Assembly: GCA_017615325.1 (NCBI GenBank)
Contig: JAGAAI010000049.1
Coordinates: 1 to 64,000 of the forward strand
Source of the DNA: Clostridiales bacterium
GTDB lineage: Bacteria; Bacillota; Clostridia; Saccharofermentanales; Saccharofermentanaceae
DNA length: 64,000 bases
Direction: 5' to 3'
In this document: one piece after another, positions 304 through 8,438 of the stretch
How the letters are laid out: each line of letters opens with the position of its first letter
Numbering within the stretch: position 1 is the first letter of the stretch
Notes under the pieces: model-generated
The model's input: only the letters and a program-made list of their open reading frames with translations
The model's database searches: none
Told to the model about the DNA's origin: nothing
Program-made: the position numbers and the translations under genes

Positions 304-750
304 ATGGCTAAGCCGGACAGACTATCGGAATTTGCAGCAGAGGATGAGATCATCTGGAAAGACCGCAGAAGATATCTGGGTTTGCCTCTGTCTTTCACAG
401 TTTATAAGTTTGATGCCAACAGGTTCTACGAGAAGAAGGGACTCTTCAATACAAAGGAAGAGGAGATCCTTTTATACCGTATCCTTGATGTCAGCCTTAA
501 GCGTTCTCTTTGGCAGAAGATCTTCGGTGTAGGTACCATCGTGTTGTCGACAGCCGATCAGTCCACTCCGATCTTAGAGATCAAGAGCGTCAAGAACTCT
601 GAGAGAGTAAGACGCGCGCTTTCCAATATCGTTGAGAAGGAAAGAGACGAGAAGAGAGTCCTCGGCAAGGAGATGTTTGGCGCATCCGGTGCTTTCGATG
701 TGCTTGACGGCCACGACATGGATCACATGATCGATCATCCCGGGATCTGA
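304..750 (+). CDS. bacterial PH-domain (bPH2/DUF304-like) protein
   Basis: This 148-residue protein has the pattern of a bacterial PH domain. A short N-terminal region leads to a Phe/Tyr-rich strand with a GLFNTKEEEILLYR-type turn. Then comes the typical IxDVSLKRS segment, a GTIVLSTAD strand and an ExIKSVKNSERV helix (about residues 35-115). No membrane segment precedes the domain, unlike many DUF304 proteins. Small bPH2 proteins of this kind have no known enzymatic activity and are thought to act at membranes or as scaffolds. The start has an AGGAGG Shine-Dalgarno site 6 bp upstream. The sirtuin gene follows after 18 bp, suggesting co-transcription. Confidence 0.7.
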   Translation: MAKPDRLSEFAAEDEIIWKDRRRYLGLPLSFTVYKFDANRFYEKKGLFNTKEEEILLYRILDVSLKRSLWQKIFGVGTIVLSTADQSTPILEIKSVKNSERVRRALSNIVEKERDEKRVLGKEMFGASGAFDVLDGHDMDHMIDHPGI

Positions 751-768
751 TAATAAGGAGCAATTCAA

Positions 769-1815
769 GTGGAAACTCGTATAGACAGACTCGGAAGCGT
801 AAGAGACGGTAAGATCCAGCAGTTAAAGGAACTGATCGCCGAGTCAGAGAATATAGTATTTTTAGGCGGAGCCGGCGTGTCCACGGAGAGCGGGATACCG
901 GATTTTCGAAGCGGAACAGGTATCTATAATCAGGATTCCGGAGTTACATACAGGCCTATAGACATAATCGCCCACGATTTCTTCATGGAGAATCCGGATG
1001 TGTTCTTCGATTTCTATAAGCGTAAGCTCATATATCCCGATGCCAAGCCCAACAAGGCTCACAAGGCTCTTGTAAGACTCGAGAAGCAGGGCAAGCTCAA
1101 GGCTATAATCACACAGAACATAGATAATCTCCATCAGGAAGCAGGGAGTAAGTGCGTCATAGAACTTCACGGTTCTGTTTTTCGTAACTATTGCATGGAG
1201 TGCGGCAAGAAGTTCGATATCGAATACATTGCATCCCAGGAAGGAATTCCCAAGTGCGACAAGTGCGGCGGCATAGTTCGTCCTGATATAGTGCTTTACG
1301 AAGAGAATCTTGAACATGAGAATGTTGATGCAGCCATCAAGGCCTGCAAGAAGTGTGATCTCTTCATCATTGCCGGAACATCTCTTACCGTTTATCCTGC
1401 GGCTACATTTGCCCAGTTCTTAAATCATAACAGGATCGTTATCATCAATAAGAGCTCTACATACATGGATCTTAAGGCAATGCTCTGCATTCATGACAGT
1501 GTAGGGAAGGTCCTGGATGAAGCCGTTCCCAAGAGAGTCTCCAAGAAGACTTCTGCAGCAAGATCAACTGCCAAGAAGAGTACAGCTAAGAAGACTGCTT
1601 CAAAGACTGCAAAGACTGCAATATCAGCCAAGTCTTCCAAGACTGCGAAGGCAGCTTCAAAGCCTTCTTCCAAGACAAGTGAGAAGACAACGGATAAGAC
1701 CGTTTCCAAGGCACGATCCAAGACGGCGAAGGCTGCTCCTGCCAAGACTGGCGTAAAAAAAGCATCCAAGTCTTCAACTACTGCTAAAGGAAAGAAGCAG
1801 GGCTCTTCTAAGTGA
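769..1815 (+). CDS. Sir2-family NAD-dependent protein deacylase with H1-like basic tail
   Basis: Residues 1-250 form a complete sirtuin. The NAD-binding GAGVSTESGIPDFRS motif begins at residue 34, the QNIDNLH motif is near 116-122, and the catalytic His is in ELHGS (H134). Zinc ligands are C142/C145 and C163/C166, and a GTSLTVYP motif follows. Sirtuins remove acyl groups from lysines using NAD. The unusual part is residues 255-348, almost entirely Lys, Ala, Ser and Thr in repeating KTAK/KKTA/SKT units, resembling the tail of histone H1 or bacterial H1-like proteins. Typical bacterial sirtuins are about 240-250 residues and end before this. The tail may bind nucleic acid or be itself acylated (inference). 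The start is GTG with AAGGAG upstream. The stop overlaps the next start (GTGA), so translation is probably coupled. Confidence 0.9.
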   Translation: METRIDRLGSVRDGKIQQLKELIAESENIVFLGGAGVSTESGIPDFRSGTGIYNQDSGVTYRPIDIIAHDFFMENPDVFFDFYKRKLIYPDAKPNKAHKALVRLEKQGKLKAIITQNIDNLHQEAGSKCVIELHGSVFRNYCMECGKKFDIEYIASQEGIPKCDKCGGIVRPDIVLYEENLEHENVDAAIKACKKCDLFIIAGTSLTVYPAATFAQFLNHNRIVIINKSSTYMDLKAMLCIHDSVGKVLDEAVPKRVSKKTSAARSTAKKSTAKKTASKTAKTAISAKSSKTAKAASKPSSKTSEKTTDKTVSKARSKTAKAAPAKTGVKKASKSSTTAKGKKQGSSK

Positions 1816-3677
1816 AAGAATTCAATAGTCAATACTTTAAAAACTTAAGCGAAGATTATTCGCGTGATATTGATTCGGCTGAGAAGAAGAGTGCGGCTTT
1901 ATCTTTTGTAAGACTTTTTCTCTTTGTTCTCGCTGTAGTATTTGTTGTTATAGCGTTTGTTAAGCATGCACTTGTTTTGTTCCTGTCTCTGGCAGGCGTA
2001 ATGCTCGCTGCATTTATCGTTGTCTGCATCATCCATCAGAAAGTCAAGGACTCCAATGAGTATCTTAAGGCATTAAGATATGCATCAGACGGCTATGCAT
2101 ATAGGATCAGCAGGGACTTTATATCACTTGAGGAATCCGTTAAGGAAAGGCTTGCTGACAGGAATCCACCGGTTAATATCAATAAGAATGTTTTCGGCGA
2201 AAAGTATATCAAAAAAGATCATGAATACTGTTTTGACCTGGATCTTTTCGGCGCAAGATCCATTTTTGCCCTCTACAATGTATCCGAGACTTCCTTCGGA
2301 AGGGATGCTTTCGCGGATGAACTCCTGAGAGCGCCTAAGAAGGGGAGGAGCATAGAAGAACTTGAGGCAAGGCAGGCAGCATGCAGGAAGATAGCCTCTG
2401 ACCCCGTAAAACTAGTTGAATATCAGGCCCGCGCCATGTCCGGACACCTGGAGGATTATCCTGATGCCTTAATAAAATTCGCAAAAAATGCGAAGACAGT
2501 TGGTCAGATCCCGCAGATTATATCCAAGATACTGCCTTTTCTCTGGCTTATCCCAATTGCAACCGTATTTACTTTTAACCCTTTATTCATAAGGGCTGCT
2601 CTGACTCTTGTCCTGTTCGTAAATCTTATCTTCTGGATCATAGGGCTTCTTAAGAATTCATCCTGTTTTGGCGGCATCGAGCGCCAGAAGAGACAGATAT
2701 CAGCTTATATCTCGCTCCTGGGTAAGATCGAAGAGAATTACGGGGATGATGGATACATTAATTCTCTGGTTAATCCCGGTGAGAACAGATCAAAGGATGT
2801 TCTATCCGGTCTTATGTCTGTAATGAATCTGCTTGACCTGAGATCACAGCCTATACTGGCTCTGCTCTTTAATCTGATTTTCCCCCTTGACTGGTATGGT
2901 GCTGCGGCTTTAGGCAAATGGGCAAAGACATACGGCGGGGACTTTGAGGAAGTCCTTGAGGGTATAGGCTGTTGTGAAGCTCTCATGAGCGCTGCAAACG
3001 GAGCTTATCTTACAGAAGTTAACTCATTCCCTGAGTTTGTTGATTCTGAAGACCCTTCCGACAATGCATTCTTTGACGGTGTCAAGGTCTGTCATCCTCT
3101 GCTCATGCCTGAGACGGCTGTATCCAATTCTGTATCTCTTGATTCGACTACAGCGATGATCACTGGTTCCAACATGTCAGGTAAGACTACTCTTATCAGG
3201 ACCTGTGGCGTATGTTCTCTCCTGTCTTATATCGGCGGTTATGTTCCTTGTGAGAGCCTTAAGATCGGAAGGATGAATATCGTCTCATCCATGAGGATCG
3301 TTGATTCATTGGAAGATAACATGAGCACCTTCAAGTCCGAACTCGTAAGGATCTCCAAGATAATCGAGGCATCAAAAGAGGAAAGACCCATGCTCTTCCT
3401 GATCGATGAGATCTTCAGGGGAACTAATTCCGACGACAGGACCCAGGGGGCTCTGACAGTGTTAAGATCCCTTTCCAAGCCTTATATCTGCGGCTTTATG
3501 ACAACTCATGACTATGCTCTTGTGGATAAGACCGTTGAATCCATGGACAATATTTCCTATTATCACTTCTCTGACAGATACACGGATGACAGCATCGTTT
3601 TCGATTATATCCTGACCGAAGGCATCAGCCGTGAGTCAAATGCGGCATTTCTTATGAAGCTTGTCGGCATAGAATAA
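1812..3677 (+). CDS. membrane-anchored MutS-family ATPase
   Basis: This 621-residue protein carries a C-terminal MutS-type ATPase. Its Walker A is GSNMSGKTT (about residue 450), and its Walker B is LFLIDEIFRGTNS (about 526). A TTHDYAL signature follows. It lacks the mismatch-recognition domain of MutS. It has two hydrophobic N-terminal helices (about residues 27-75) and another hydrophobic pair near 238-280, so the ATPase should be tethered to the membrane. Proteins of this layout are known in Firmicutes as MutS-related membrane proteins of unknown role; a function in mismatch repair should not be assumed. It starts with GTG inside the stop of the sirtuin gene, indicating tight co-expression. 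Confidence 0.85.
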   Translation: MKEFNSQYFKNLSEDYSRDIDSAEKKSAALSFVRLFLFVLAVVFVVIAFVKHALVLFLSLAGVMLAAFIVVCIIHQKVKDSNEYLKALRYASDGYAYRISRDFISLEESVKERLADRNPPVNINKNVFGEKYIKKDHEYCFDLDLFGARSIFALYNVSETSFGRDAFADELLRAPKKGRSIEELEARQAACRKIASDPVKLVEYQARAMSGHLEDYPDALIKFAKNAKTVGQIPQIISKILPFLWLIPIATVFTFNPLFIRAALTLVLFVNLIFWIIGLLKNSSCFGGIERQKRQISAYISLLGKIEENYGDDGYINSLVNPGENRSKDVLSGLMSVMNLLDLRSQPILALLFNLIFPLDWYGAAALGKWAKTYGGDFEEVLEGIGCCEALMSAANGAYLTEVNSFPEFVDSEDPSDNAFFDGVKVCHPLLMPETAVSNSVSLDSTTAMITGSNMSGKTTLIRTCGVCSLLSYIGGYVPCESLKIGRMNIVSSMRIVDSLEDNMSTFKSELVRISKIIEASKEERPMLFLIDEIFRGTNSDDRTQGALTVLRSLSKPYICGFMTTHDYALVDKTVESMDNISYYHFSDRYTDDSIVFDYILTEGISRESNAAFLMKLVGIE

Positions 3678-3761: not shown

Positions 3762-5519
3762 ATGTTTGAAGACTTAGAACAGTATGATTCGCTGATCCTG
3801 GACTACTCAGTTATGCGCGAATTCGGCGCTACGCCGATCTTCGACGAGATGACCCGTATCGTATGTACTTCGGGCATGGATGTCTATGTCAGCAAGACAT
3901 TTAAGCTTCTCCATTACTGTATAATGCATCAGGCAGACAAGAAGGACAGTGCTTCCATCGGCAGCATGAAGCTCTTCTGCGCCCAGCTCCTGCCTTATAA
4001 GAAGCTTCACCTTGTTCAGTATGCATCGACCCTTGATTTCCTTGATTCTGTCAAGGAAGTGCCTAATGCCGTTATCGTTACAACGAAGAACGGTCTCTTT
4101 ACAAGGCGTCTTTATGAATATGATATAGATCTTGATATACCTATCTGGGTCGTAACCCGTGAAGGCATGTATATGTTCTCCGGTATTGCCGAGATGAAGG
4201 AATCCCTGCCTATGCCTGAGGTATCGCCTCTGGCTGAGCAGAAGATCTTCCTGGATCTTCCTGTCAGCTGTAATGTCGGTGATGTCGTAAGGACTGAGCA
4301 CGACGAGCCCTTCGAGCTTTACTCCAGGATGAGCGGCGGTGCTGAAGGCATGGTCTTCACGACTGATAAGAAGAATCAGGTTGCCAAGATCTACCATAAG
4401 AACATCCTGACTCCTTTGAGATGGGCTAAGCTTAAGCGGATCTGCCAGATCGGCATCACGGCCAACGGATTCTGTCTGCCTTATAATCTGCTCTTCTATA
4501 AGGGTTATCCCGTAGGTTACATGATGCCACTGGGCAAGGGTGTTCCTCTCGGTAATGTTTTCGACGGGCCGGATGCCCTGCTCGAAGCTTTCCCTGACTG
4601 GACGAGAATAGATGTGGTAAATACTTTGCTCGCCTTGCTCGAAAAGTACATCTATCTGCATCTTCATAACATCATCGCAGGTGATATCCAGCTCAAGAAT
4701 GCGCTTATCAGCTCATCTTCGTCTGTATTCCTGATCGATATGGACAGTATCCAGGTCGGCAATCTACCTTGCCCTGTAGGTACTGAGGAATTCACGGATC
4801 CCAATCTCTGGGGCAAGGATTTTGCGGGATTCGTAAGGACCCTGCACGATGAGGATTACTCGATCGCCATGCTCGTATTCTCCGTTCTCTTCTGCGGTCT
4901 GCATCCTTATGCGACCAGGAACGGCGCCGAGACCTTGAGAGAAGAAGTCCTTGGAAGGAATTTCCCTTACGATCCGGAATCCGAATCCAAAGAACACATC
5001 CCGAAGGGCGGATATGAATATATCTGGTACTACCTGTCTGACAGGCTTAAGAAGATGCTCTACGGAACATTCAGGCTCGGACAGTCCTTTGAGACGATCG
5101 AGTGGTATGACGCCGTCATCGAATATAAAGAGGATCTTCTGAACCGCAGATATAAGGACCCTGAGGCCTATAAAGTCTTCCCCAAAATGGATTACAGGCA
5201 GGCAGAGGTCGATATCACTGTTCCTGATAAGGAAGTTGAGGCGCAGCTTAAGAAGGAAGAGGCTGCAAGAAGAAGAGAAGAAGCTGAGAAGAGAAAAGAA
5301 GAAATGGAAAGGAAGCGCGAAGAACTGCAGAAGCGCCTTGGTAATGTTCCCACGGGTTCTGCAAACAGAGGTCAGCCTGTCTTCACGGCTTCCGGAAGAT
5401 ATATCCCCGGAAGGGACGAGCCCGAAGATACACCTGTAGAACCTGCGACACCTGAGATGCCGTCACAGGATTCCAATAAGAGAAGAGGCTTACTGGGCGG
5501 ACTTTTCGGAAATAAATAA
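3762..5519 (+). CDS. PIN-like domain fused to an atypical protein kinase
   Basis: The protein has 585 residues from ATG 3762; a TTG at 3759 is an alternative. The first ~150 residues look like a PIN-type fold: an LDYSVMREF start with an Asp, then AVIVTTKNGLFTRRL (tentative). A kinase-like domain follows from about 178 to 400. It has a glycine-rich GGAEG loop near 191, the VAKIYHK lysine near 206, an IIAGDIQLKN catalytic loop near 307 in place of HRD, and IDMD near 326 in place of DFG. The Asp and Asn needed for catalysis are present. The C-terminus has an E/K/R-rich coiled coil (about 493-526) and ends in RGLLGGLFGNK. The kinase resembles those in TerY-P type gene triads, and the VWA and PP2C neighbours support a phosphorylation switch. 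Confidence 0.75.
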   Translation: MFEDLEQYDSLILDYSVMREFGATPIFDEMTRIVCTSGMDVYVSKTFKLLHYCIMHQADKKDSASIGSMKLFCAQLLPYKKLHLVQYASTLDFLDSVKEVPNAVIVTTKNGLFTRRLYEYDIDLDIPIWVVTREGMYMFSGIAEMKESLPMPEVSPLAEQKIFLDLPVSCNVGDVVRTEHDEPFELYSRMSGGAEGMVFTTDKKNQVAKIYHKNILTPLRWAKLKRICQIGITANGFCLPYNLLFYKGYPVGYMMPLGKGVPLGNVFDGPDALLEAFPDWTRIDVVNTLLALLEKYIYLHLHNIIAGDIQLKNALISSSSSVFLIDMDSIQVGNLPCPVGTEEFTDPNLWGKDFAGFVRTLHDEDYSIAMLVFSVLFCGLHPYATRNGAETLREEVLGRNFPYDPESESKEHIPKGGYEYIWYYLSDRLKKMLYGTFRLGQSFETIEWYDAVIEYKEDLLNRRYKDPEAYKVFPKMDYRQAEVDITVPDKEVEAQLKKEEAARRREEAEKRKEEMERKREELQKRLGNVPTGSANRGQPVFTASGRYIPGRDEPEDTPVEPATPEMPSQDSNKRRGLLGGLFGNK

Positions 5520-5545
5520 GAGAAAGATTTTGAGAGGTAATACCA

Positions 5546-6286
5546 ATGGCAGAAGAACTGTTTAACGCGTCAGATTTTGGTACGAGTACAAAGAGGAGAC
5601 TTCCTATCTGTTTTGCTCTTGATACTTCCGGTTCCATGATGGGCAACCCCATAAGGCAGCTCAACATGGGCCTTCAGAACTTCCTTGCATCCATTAAGGC
5701 TAATGACGATACAAGGTCTTCTACGGATATCGCCATCATCACATTCGGATCGAAGGTTGAGGTAGTTATGCCTTTCGGTAAGATCTCCAAAGAGAATAGC
5801 GTTCCCGAGATCTCTGCTTCCACGACTCTTACACCTATCGGTGAGGGTGTCCTTACCGCTCTGGAGCTTCTCAATATGCGTAAAGAAGGTTATAAGGAAC
5901 TTGGCATCAAGTATTTCCAGCCCTGGCTCGTCGTTATTACCGACGGTGCTCCTCAGGGCCCGAATGCCATGGCCAATATGGAACTTGCGATCAAGGCCTG
6001 CAATGAACTCGAGGCAAATGACAAGCTCGTTGTGTTCAATATCGGTGTAGGGTCCGGAGTTGACTGGGATATATTGAAGAGATTGTCGGTCAAGAGGGAA
6101 GAGCCTATCTCCGTTAATTCTGCTGACTTCGGCAAACTCTTTGAATTCCTGGGATCTTCGTCATCTTCGATCGTATCTTCCGGCATGAGTGACGATGCTC
6201 TCTATAACATATCGACCGAGCCCGAGGGCGAATCCGTTGATATGGATGACTTTATGAAATACATAGATGACGAGGAAAATTCCTGA
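5546..6286 (+). CDS. TerY-like VWA-domain protein
   Basis: This is a 246-residue cytoplasmic von Willebrand A domain. The metal-ion site is intact: DTSGS at residues 26-30, the Thr of TTLTPIGEG near 93, and the Asp of VITDGAPQG near 132. No signal peptide or membrane segment is visible. Similar stand-alone VWA proteins (TerY) are encoded beside a protein kinase and a PP2C phosphatase in predicted stress-signalling modules; the same three types are contiguous here. The C-terminus is acidic (DMDDFMKYIDDEE). The start follows a GAGAGGTAAT ribosome site. The stop codon shares one base with the next start. Confidence 0.85.
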   Translation: MAEELFNASDFGTSTKRRLPICFALDTSGSMMGNPIRQLNMGLQNFLASIKANDDTRSSTDIAIITFGSKVEVVMPFGKISKENSVPEISASTTLTPIGEGVLTALELLNMRKEGYKELGIKYFQPWLVVITDGAPQGPNAMANMELAIKACNELEANDKLVVFNIGVGSGVDWDILKRLSVKREEPISVNSADFGKLFEFLGSSSSSIVSSGMSDDALYNISTEPEGESVDMDDFMKYIDDEENS

Positions 6287-7419
6287 TGTATTCCGGAATA
6301 ACAGTCGGCGCAGTCACACTGATCGGAAATAAACATAAGAACCGCCAGACCCCCTGTGAAGATTATTCTTACGCCGGTGAGGCCTGCGGAGTCACTGCCG
6401 TTATCGTATCTGACGGTGCCGGAAGCAAGCAGTACACACATGCAAGGTTCGGATCTGAGGCTGCCTGCAAGTCAATATTTGATCTTCTGACCAGGCATTT
6501 TGATTCCTTATATAACGAGAACCGTGAGCAGGCCGTAAGGAGCCTTATCATTGCAAGGCTTCATATCGCATTTGCCGATATCATGAAGGAGATGGAACTG
6601 TCTTCCTTAGAGCAGCTCTCCTGTACATTGATGTTCTGTGCCGTTAAGGACAGACGTATGCTGATAGGACACTTGGGCGACGGCCTTATTGCAAAGATAT
6701 CGTCATCCGGCGCTGTTCCTCTTACCATGCCTCAGAACGAGAAGGACGGTACGACCTTCTTTGTTACGGCAGGTCATGCTCCCGATTATCTGAGATTAGT
6801 GAAGACGACCGTTGATGACTGCCATGCTGTAGCTCTCATGACCGACGGAGTCCAGGATTCCGTATACGATGAGACTTCAGGTCTTGTAAAGCCCGTTGTT
6901 GCAAAACTCTGTGAGACTTTCTCCAAGGGCCGCGAAGAAGGCGAGAAGGCTATAGAAGATACTATCGCCAAGTATATCGTTGGCGGAAGCAACAATTCTG
7001 ACGATGCATCTCTCGGAGTAATTCTTTTCGAGGGGACAGAAGCTCCGGATGCTTCAAAGCTTCCCGGGTCTGCCGCGTCTTTCCCTTCTGCAGATGAGAC
7101 TTTCCGTGATGTTCAGAAGACTATGGTCGAGGATGTCAAGAAAGCTCATGCGATAATATCCGGCCTTGCAAGCAAGGAGCAGGATGAGGCGGTCAATGAA
7201 GATATCAGGGCTGAAGAAGCTAATGAATCGGCTAAGCCTAATGAAGCAGAAGCCGAATCTAACGCTTCAGAAACAAAAGAAGATACAGCCGCTAAAGAGG
7301 CTGATAAGTCTGAACCGGCTGTAACTTCGAATCTTAACACAAAGTTAATCGCAGCCCTTATAGCGTGCGGAGTCGAATTTGTTATAATAATCTTGTTATT
7401 GATAATGCTCTTTAAATAA
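6286..7419 (+). CDS. PP2C-family Ser/Thr phosphatase with C-terminal membrane anchor
   Basis: The 377-residue protein has the PP2C metal-binding motifs: PCEDYS (residues 23-28), VSDGAGS (41-47), GHLGDG, MTDGVQDS and SDDASLG. The catalytic domain ends near residue 255. A long acidic, Ala/Glu-rich linker then leads to one hydrophobic segment at the extreme C-terminus (about 352-375), so the enzyme is probably tail-anchored with its catalytic domain in the cytoplasm. It probably reverses phosphorylation by the kinase two genes upstream (inference from order). Its start overlaps the VWA stop by one base. Confidence 0.85.
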   Translation: MYSGITVGAVTLIGNKHKNRQTPCEDYSYAGEACGVTAVIVSDGAGSKQYTHARFGSEAACKSIFDLLTRHFDSLYNENREQAVRSLIIARLHIAFADIMKEMELSSLEQLSCTLMFCAVKDRRMLIGHLGDGLIAKISSSGAVPLTMPQNEKDGTTFFVTAGHAPDYLRLVKTTVDDCHAVALMTDGVQDSVYDETSGLVKPVVAKLCETFSKGREEGEKAIEDTIAKYIVGGSNNSDDASLGVILFEGTEAPDASKLPGSAASFPSADETFRDVQKTMVEDVKKAHAIISGLASKEQDEAVNEDIRAEEANESAKPNEAEAESNASETKEDTAAKEADKSEPAVTSNLNTKLIAALIACGVEFVIIILLLIMLFK

Positions 7420-7436
7420 TTCAAGAGAGGTTCTTT

Positions 7437-8438
7437 ATGGACGCAGATAACGAACTTAAGAGGAAATACGAGATACTGCCCGGCGTTAATGTTCCGGATA
7501 TGAAGACTTTGGCTGAAGCATCCGAGAATTACGATACGGTAGGTGTCGAGGACTTTGAAGTCAAGGCAGTAGTTCCCAGATTCATGTCAGACGGCAAGCC
7601 CGATGTTGCAACTGCAGCTGAGCTCGCACAGCTCCAGGCCCTTGGTGCGGAAGTCGCTGAGGTTGAGTCCCGCCAGAGCGAAGAAAGCCGCAAGAGGATG
7701 GAAAGCATCTTAAGTACGGCTGTATCTGCTCCGTCAACATTGAGCGATCTTAAGAAAGATGCTGCAAAGAAGATCTCCGAGGAGAAGAAGAAAGAACTCG
7801 AAGAGAGCATGAGAGAGCAGGAAGAGGCCAAGGCTGCAGAAGAAGCCAAGATCAAGGCCAGGGAAGACCGTAAGAAGCTCCAGCAGCAGATCTTTGAGGA
7901 ATCAAAGAAGAAGGCTGAAGAGCAGAAGGCTAAGGCTTCACAGGAGGCCAAGAAGGCTGAAGATAAGGCTGCTGAGTCTAAGGATACTGTTAAGGCATCT
8001 GAAACAAAAGAATCTGAATCCTCAAAAGAAGATAAAGTCAAGGAAGAACCCGCAAAGGAACAGAAGGCTGTTAAGGCAGAGGAGGCCAAGCCTGTTGAAT
8101 CCGCAAAGAAGCCCGCAGAGCAGGTTAAGCCTGCCGAGCCCGTTAAGAAGGAGATCGTTACCGAGTCTGTTGATGCGGATGCATCAGCCGAGCTTGCCTT
8201 TGCAGAGTTTGGAGACTTTGTTGATCCTAATATCCTTGGCATTGAAGATGAAGAAGATGATCTTGATCTCCTGATCGAAGATGTCCCTGCCGAAGAGCCG
8301 GCAAAGGAAGTTCTGCCGTCAGCCCGTTTGTCTGATGGCGAAGAAGAACTTGAAGTCATCATAGATCCTGATCCGGATGATGATCCTTCTGATGACGGGA
8401 GCAAAGGCGGAAGCGGCTTCCTTTTCGGTGGCGAATAA
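7437..8438 (+). CDS. acidic/basic coiled-coil protein of unknown function
   Basis: This 333-residue protein has no recognisable fold. Residues 1-80 are mixed. Residues 80-240 are a low-complexity Lys/Glu/Ala region predicted to form a long coiled coil with alternating KKAEE-type units. The C-terminal third is strongly acidic (EDEEDDLDLLIED, DPDPDDDPSDDG). The end, GGSGFLFGGE, resembles the glycine-phenylalanine end of the kinase (GLLGGLFGNK). It follows the phosphatase by 17 bp with an AGAGAGG ribosome site and is followed by a strong terminator, so it is the last gene of the kinase operon. It may be a substrate or scaffold for the kinase and phosphatase (inference). Confidence 0.6.
   Translation: MDADNELKRKYEILPGVNVPDMKTLAEASENYDTVGVEDFEVKAVVPRFMSDGKPDVATAAELAQLQALGAEVAEVESRQSEESRKRMESILSTAVSAPSTLSDLKKDAAKKISEEKKKELEESMREQEEAKAAEEAKIKAREDRKKLQQQIFEESKKKAEEQKAKASQEAKKAEDKAAESKDTVKASETKESESSKEDKVKEEPAKEQKAVKAEEAKPVESAKKPAEQVKPAEPVKKEIVTESVDADASAELAFAEFGDFVDPNILGIEDEEDDLDLLIEDVPAEEPAKEVLPSARLSDGEEELEVIIDPDPDDDPSDDGSKGGSGFLFGGE

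Follow-up and report, generated by a model that had tools for sequence, protein, structure and literature searches.

The window, a 64,000-nucleotide stretch from the assembly of a Clostridiales bacterium of the rumen (2.64 Mb, 98% complete; G000), contains a cassette of four genes, all on the forward strand and in the positions given for them in an earlier note on this DNA. The first gene (3762–5519) starts with ATG, is preceded by a GAGGTAG ribosome-binding-like site, and encodes a 585-residue fusion of a PIN-like domain to a predicted Ser/Thr kinase of the YegI/TerY-P class. It is followed by genes for a 246-residue TerY/YegL-type VWA protein (5546–6286), a 377-residue PP2C phosphatase (6286–7419), and a 333-residue acidic coiled-coil partner protein that is confined to the window's clade (7437–8438). 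The earlier note had described the first three genes as contiguous, with a one-base overlap between the last two, and the coordinates agree: the VWA stop codon and the PP2C start codon have one base in common, in the sequence TGATG. The coiled-coil gene that the note saw added to the three lies directly after the PP2C gene. Intergenic distances are short, with a median of −1 bp between the VWA and PP2C genes and 7 bp between the PP2C and coiled-coil genes. A scan for promoters and terminators gave a result near chance level.

The kinase domain occupies about residues 172–480 (4275–5201) and contains a SGGAEGMVF loop, K209, D308 and N313 in the segment GDIQLKN, and D326 and D328 in the segment IDMDS. 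The catalytic Asp and Asn, which had been read as intact, are invariant along with the DxDS residues across 24–27 homologues. The Pfam Pkinase match is below threshold (0.07); BLAST aligned the kinase domain with E. coli YegI at 29% identity (8e-20), and the best PDB match of the predicted model of the full kinase was PknB, followed by other kinases. The predicted protein has the kinase fold, with the Lys, the catalytic Asp/Asn and the metal Asp, by which a Hanks-type kinase is recognized, and presumably has Ser/Thr kinase activity. The VWA protein (Pfam VWA, 1e-13) is 34.5% identical to E. coli YegL (2e-32), and the phosphatase (Pfam PP2C_2, 6e-31) is 23.5% identical to E. coli PphC (4e-6). 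The metal site of the VWA protein, made up of DTSGSM, T and TDG, is intact, as first thought, and its residues are invariant in homologues, as is the metal Asp of the PP2C. Judged by these alignments the three proteins are homologues of YegI, YegL and PphC, i.e., a TerY-P triad, in keeping with the proposal that the locus is a phosphorylation module.

TerY-P triads are described as sets of a VWA protein, a PP2C and a kinase that carries a fused zinc ribbon or OB-fold (PMC11090510). The cassette resembles these triads in the adjacency of the three families and the retention of the metal and catalytic residues. It differs in that the kinase has a PIN N-terminus and lacks a zinc ribbon or OB-fold, in having a fourth, coiled-coil gene and membrane-type tails, in being core and not mobile, and in residing in a genome without TerD or TerC. 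At the kinase C-terminus Pfam gave no zinc ribbon or OB-fold match; the structure model has a charged helix (residues 489–527) followed by a low-confidence linker (5202–5480), and shows the tail as disordered. When the cassette was searched with the PADLOC TerY-P models, neither the VWA protein nor the PP2C was matched at E≤1, the kinase was matched by STK_OB alone, at 0.0015, and no triad was called. A Ter operon was ruled out, there being no TerD or TerC anywhere in the assembly. The earlier note had seen no TerD, TerC or TerB homologue near the genes; the absence of the first two thus extends to the whole assembly, and that of TerB does not, one TerB-domain gene being found away from the cassette. 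All three enzymes are likewise homologous to the proteins of the E. coli YegI–PphC–YegL system, but YegI has no PIN domain, the gene order is different, and there is no coiled-coil partner. YegI also has a longer C-terminal region than the cassette kinase, of the helix-hairpin-helix type.

The N-terminal 150 residues of the kinase (3762–4211) had been called PIN-like. Searches of the N-terminus against Pfam, NCBIfam and PDB sequences gave no PIN match, and the fold was revealed by structure alone: the AlphaFold prediction for residues 1–150 has a pLDDT of 93.9, and the best matches of the model to the PDB by Foldseek were the PIN domains of Utp24 (5e-4) and AF0591 (TM-score 0.60, normalized by target), with VapC and the SMG5 PIN domain also among the PIN matches. 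The prediction thus bears out the PIN fold on which the earlier reading depended. Four acidic residues characterize the PIN active site, and in active-type triads of other bacteria, described below, all four are present in 8/8 kinases. In six distant relatives of the window's kinase the first acid is kept in 6/6 and the second in 5/6, and the others in none; in the window's genus the first is kept in 77/77 sequences and the second in 0/77, while the rest vary and the glutamate is found in 0/77. In the window, D14 is the sole survivor of the four. Because just the first catalytic acid is kept, the domain is, to judge from its residues, a pseudonuclease. The SMG5 PIN and other pseudonucleases similarly have a PIN fold without the full catalytic set; SMG5 differs in not being fused to a kinase, and no sequence relation between the two domains is shown. 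The pattern of acids looks like stepwise decay, though inheritance of the fusion from the active type is unproven by sequence or tree.

The dN/dS values were 0.055–0.069 for the PIN part, 0.055–0.098 for the kinase domain and 0.02 for the VWA protein, the most constrained; dS is near saturation, so these values are approximate and are to be read as strong purifying selection. Constraint on the PIN part is thus no looser than that on the kinase domain. All of 83/83 sequences (77 from the genus and 6 from outgroups) have D14, and F47, K48 and H51 are also invariant. Such constancy might suggest that the domain is still a nuclease with an unusual set of acids, with the kinase regulating RNA cleavage, but the domain has lost all but one of its four metal-binding acids and no genus sequence has the glutamate, so that we consider this reading highly improbable. 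As a pseudonuclease, the domain may bind RNA or, equally possibly, protein. The earlier suggestion that the kinase senses damage through its PIN-like part found no support, and we have dropped it.

Triads of a PIN-kinase, a VWA protein and a PP2C in which the acidic site is complete were found in other Bacillota, Fusobacteriota and Actinomycetota, examples being those of the Lysinibacillus capsici plasmid pFN9B, a Paenarthrobacter AT5 plasmid, and Fusobacterium vincentii SB055. Pfam PIN_4 matched at or above its cut-off in the kinases of Fusobacterium, Paenarthrobacter, and genomes G285 and G784, and below it in those of Lysinibacillus and genome G780; one such kinase is already annotated 'PIN domain-containing protein'. 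As in the cassette, the PIN domain is N-terminal to a kinase of the same class and the VWA and PP2C genes are next to it; the active-PIN triads differ in keeping all four PIN acids, in having a kinase that ends in a treble-clef/zinc-ribbon-like segment, and in that no coiled-coil gene was seen, Lysinibacillus having a J-domain-like fourth gene. Since triads with intact active sites exist in several phyla, the PIN-kinase fusion itself is not new. Aligned with hhalign to the active-triad PIN domains, the window's PIN domain matched in register over its whole length, but too weakly (E 0.011, probability 3.8%) for homology to be claimed from sequence, and the kinase tree resolves the window's clade neither with nor apart from the other PIN-kinases. 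Because the match is weak and the tree does not place the clade, it is possible that the fusion in the window's clade arose independently.

Most named relatives in the window's genus are listed as Saccharofermentans sp. or as unclassified Clostridia, and come from rumen and gut. The kinase was found in 56/59 genomes of the genus, the window's own included; the three without it are 64, 69 and 80% complete, and it is present in every sampled genus genome with a completeness of 90% or more. In the other families of the order it was found in 0/40 genomes, and among 391 sampled genomes of the class the full-length kinase was confined to this genus. A scan of named genomes added six full-length relatives with 36–39% identity (L160, L161 and L163–L166). 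The earlier note had made its reading depend on the four genes being neighbours in related genomes, and in a neighbourhood survey the order kinase–VWA–PP2C–coiled-coil was the same in 40/40 genus loci, one of them interrupted: in L060 (2305–7936; L145 is from the same species), six genes lie between the VWA and PP2C genes, which by sequence read as a response regulator, a sensor-kinase-like protein, an ABC transporter ATPase and membrane proteins. The cassette is thus core in the window's genus, and its position is fixed. Its flanks vary: some species have a diaminopimelate decarboxylase-like gene between a MutS-like gene and the kinase gene, and the downstream genes differ among species, with the cassette itself intact. 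The block just upstream in the window (304–3677) consists of a PH-domain gene, a gene for a Sir2-like deacylase with a lysine/alanine-rich tail, and a gene for a membrane protein with MutS domain V, and is conserved in nearly all relatives.

This distribution bears on whether the cassette is a working anti-phage system of the TerY-P type, in which infection would be sensed and the kinase would trigger arrest or block phage growth. Protection against T7-like phages and Autographiviridae has been shown for some TerY-P triads (PMC7699616; PMC10889362; PMC11090510), and the active-PIN relatives adjoin restriction-modification-like genes, transposases and genes for plasmid transfer. The cassette, unlike patchy defence genes, is core and fixed in position; moreover, its VWA protein gave no match to the PADLOC TerY model, its kinase has neither the OB-fold nor the zinc ribbon seen in defence versions, and the PIN acids are lost. 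A defence role is therefore quite unlikely. A search of phages gave no match.

Both enzymes have tails of a membrane type. The PP2C ends in a TM-like helix (7345–7413) that is hydrophobic in 40/40 homologues, enough so for a TM helix, which agrees with the membrane anchor proposed for it. The kinase ends in a basic/hydrophobic tail, RRGLLGGLFGNK (5481–5516), which in most relatives is KKKFFGLF and in 40/40 homologues is basic and F/L-rich. The tail is short and has no predicted TM helix; in 3/6 outgroup kinases it is replaced by a TM-like helix, and we infer that it contacts the membrane. These tails, and the core status of the cassette, would suit a PknB/Stp-like regulator of envelope or growth that phosphorylates division or cell-wall proteins via the coiled-coil partner. 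In a published view, sets of kinase, PP2C and vWA genes are tied to the regulated assembly of cytoskeleton-like complexes (PMC7159879), and at one outgroup locus (L163) an FHA-FtsW-like gene is next to the cassette. Nevertheless, the genome already encodes a strong PknB-like kinase elsewhere, the FHA-FtsW neighbour is limited to that one locus, and in the window the cassette is flanked by housekeeping genes unrelated to it, all of which makes such a regulator an unlikely explanation. At L163 (10082–13047), a gene for an FtsW-like protein with a fused FHA domain and a penicillin-binding-protein-like gene are convergent to the cassette of this distant relative. The sole FHA protein detected in the window's genome, of 433 residues (contig C39, 46118–46321; L217), could read phosphothreonine.

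The coiled-coil protein has a conserved N-terminal motif, KxYxxLPGVxxPDMKxxxEAxSxx (7458–7547), of which outgroup versions exist: the gene is at the equivalent place in the six distant relatives, with the N-terminal motif recognizable. The C-terminal motif is recognizable in all of them but L163. This second motif, DDFxEFL at the C-terminus of relatives' proteins, has an internal version in the window, EFGDFVD (8205–8225), and resembles the acidic motif DDFMKYI at the C-terminus of the VWA protein (6245–6265). A strict DDFxxF-type pattern occurs in 40/40 VWA proteins, 27/40 coiled-coil proteins and 2/264 unrelated flanking ORFs, with the proviso that the pattern was picked after the alignments had been inspected and that the orthologues counted are not independent. 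The common motif suggests that the VWA protein and the coiled-coil protein may have a common acidic docking site. Ser and Thr residues near the acidic motif of the coiled-coil protein are not invariant. The near-invariant Ser of the N-terminal motif (region 7437–7547 in the window) is Glu in the window and its nearest relative.

The reading that we favour, as the probable one on balance, is that the cassette is a domesticated chromosomal triad of the TerY-P/Yeg type, with a binding-only PIN domain and the VWA protein as a hub, and acts on the inner side of the membrane as a switch based on reversible Ser/Thr phosphorylation. The YegI-class kinase would be kept near the membrane by its tail, and the membrane-anchored PP2C would undo its reaction; PphC has been reported to dephosphorylate YegI, a membrane-bound kinase (PMC13232886). 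The VWA protein, as a metal-dependent hub, would recruit the two enzymes to their targets, and ligand binding by the pseudonuclease PIN would gate the kinase. The coiled-coil protein would be a dedicated adaptor or substrate that docks by the C-terminal acidic motif common to it and the VWA protein. The substrate and physiological role so assigned, and descent from a mobile triad, are presumed. A bolder version, which we hold only tentatively and regard as doubtful, is that an active-PIN and probably defensive triad was tamed in one rumen Clostridia clade: its nuclease would have decayed stepwise to a ligand-binding, kinase-gating pseudonuclease, its enzymes would have become localized to the membrane, and a new coiled-coil effector would have been recruited, giving a core signalling pathway without a described counterpart. 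The earlier description of a possible new module does not hold in the strong sense, given that the TerY-P/Yeg triad is known and that active-looking PIN-kinase versions exist in several phyla. As far as we found in the literature and collections searched, what is new is the decayed but selected PIN domain, the fourth, coiled-coil gene with the motif common to the VWA protein, the membrane-type tails, and the fact that the cassette is core to a genus. Triads of the TerY-P and Yeg types occur widely, and the cassette offers a candidate substrate, the coiled-coil protein, and a candidate docking motif. The active, half-decayed and dead PIN domains form a natural series for how such triads are gated.

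Several further features were seen at loci of this kind. Active-PIN triads with duplicated VWA genes occur at L208 (5533–10682; genome G285) and L203 (3801–10936; genome G763); the G763 triad has tandem PIN-kinases, and that of G285 has methylase- and specificity-like genes on its flanks. An HTH protein is encoded directly upstream of the active-PIN kinase at L170 (4364–5272), L208 (4529–5518) and L207 (5480–6343), and its C-terminal half also looks PIN-like in L208 and L170. In the Lysinibacillus plasmid triad, the fourth gene (L168, 9517–10173) encodes a protein with a J-domain-like end (DnaJ, E 9e-4), and E. coli yegI adjoins the Hsp70 family gene yegD. In genome G414, the gene for a TIR-like protein (L209, 3105–4118) immediately precedes a VWA gene and the gene of a degenerate PIN-like kinase, in which the catalytic motif reads GCPDPAS.
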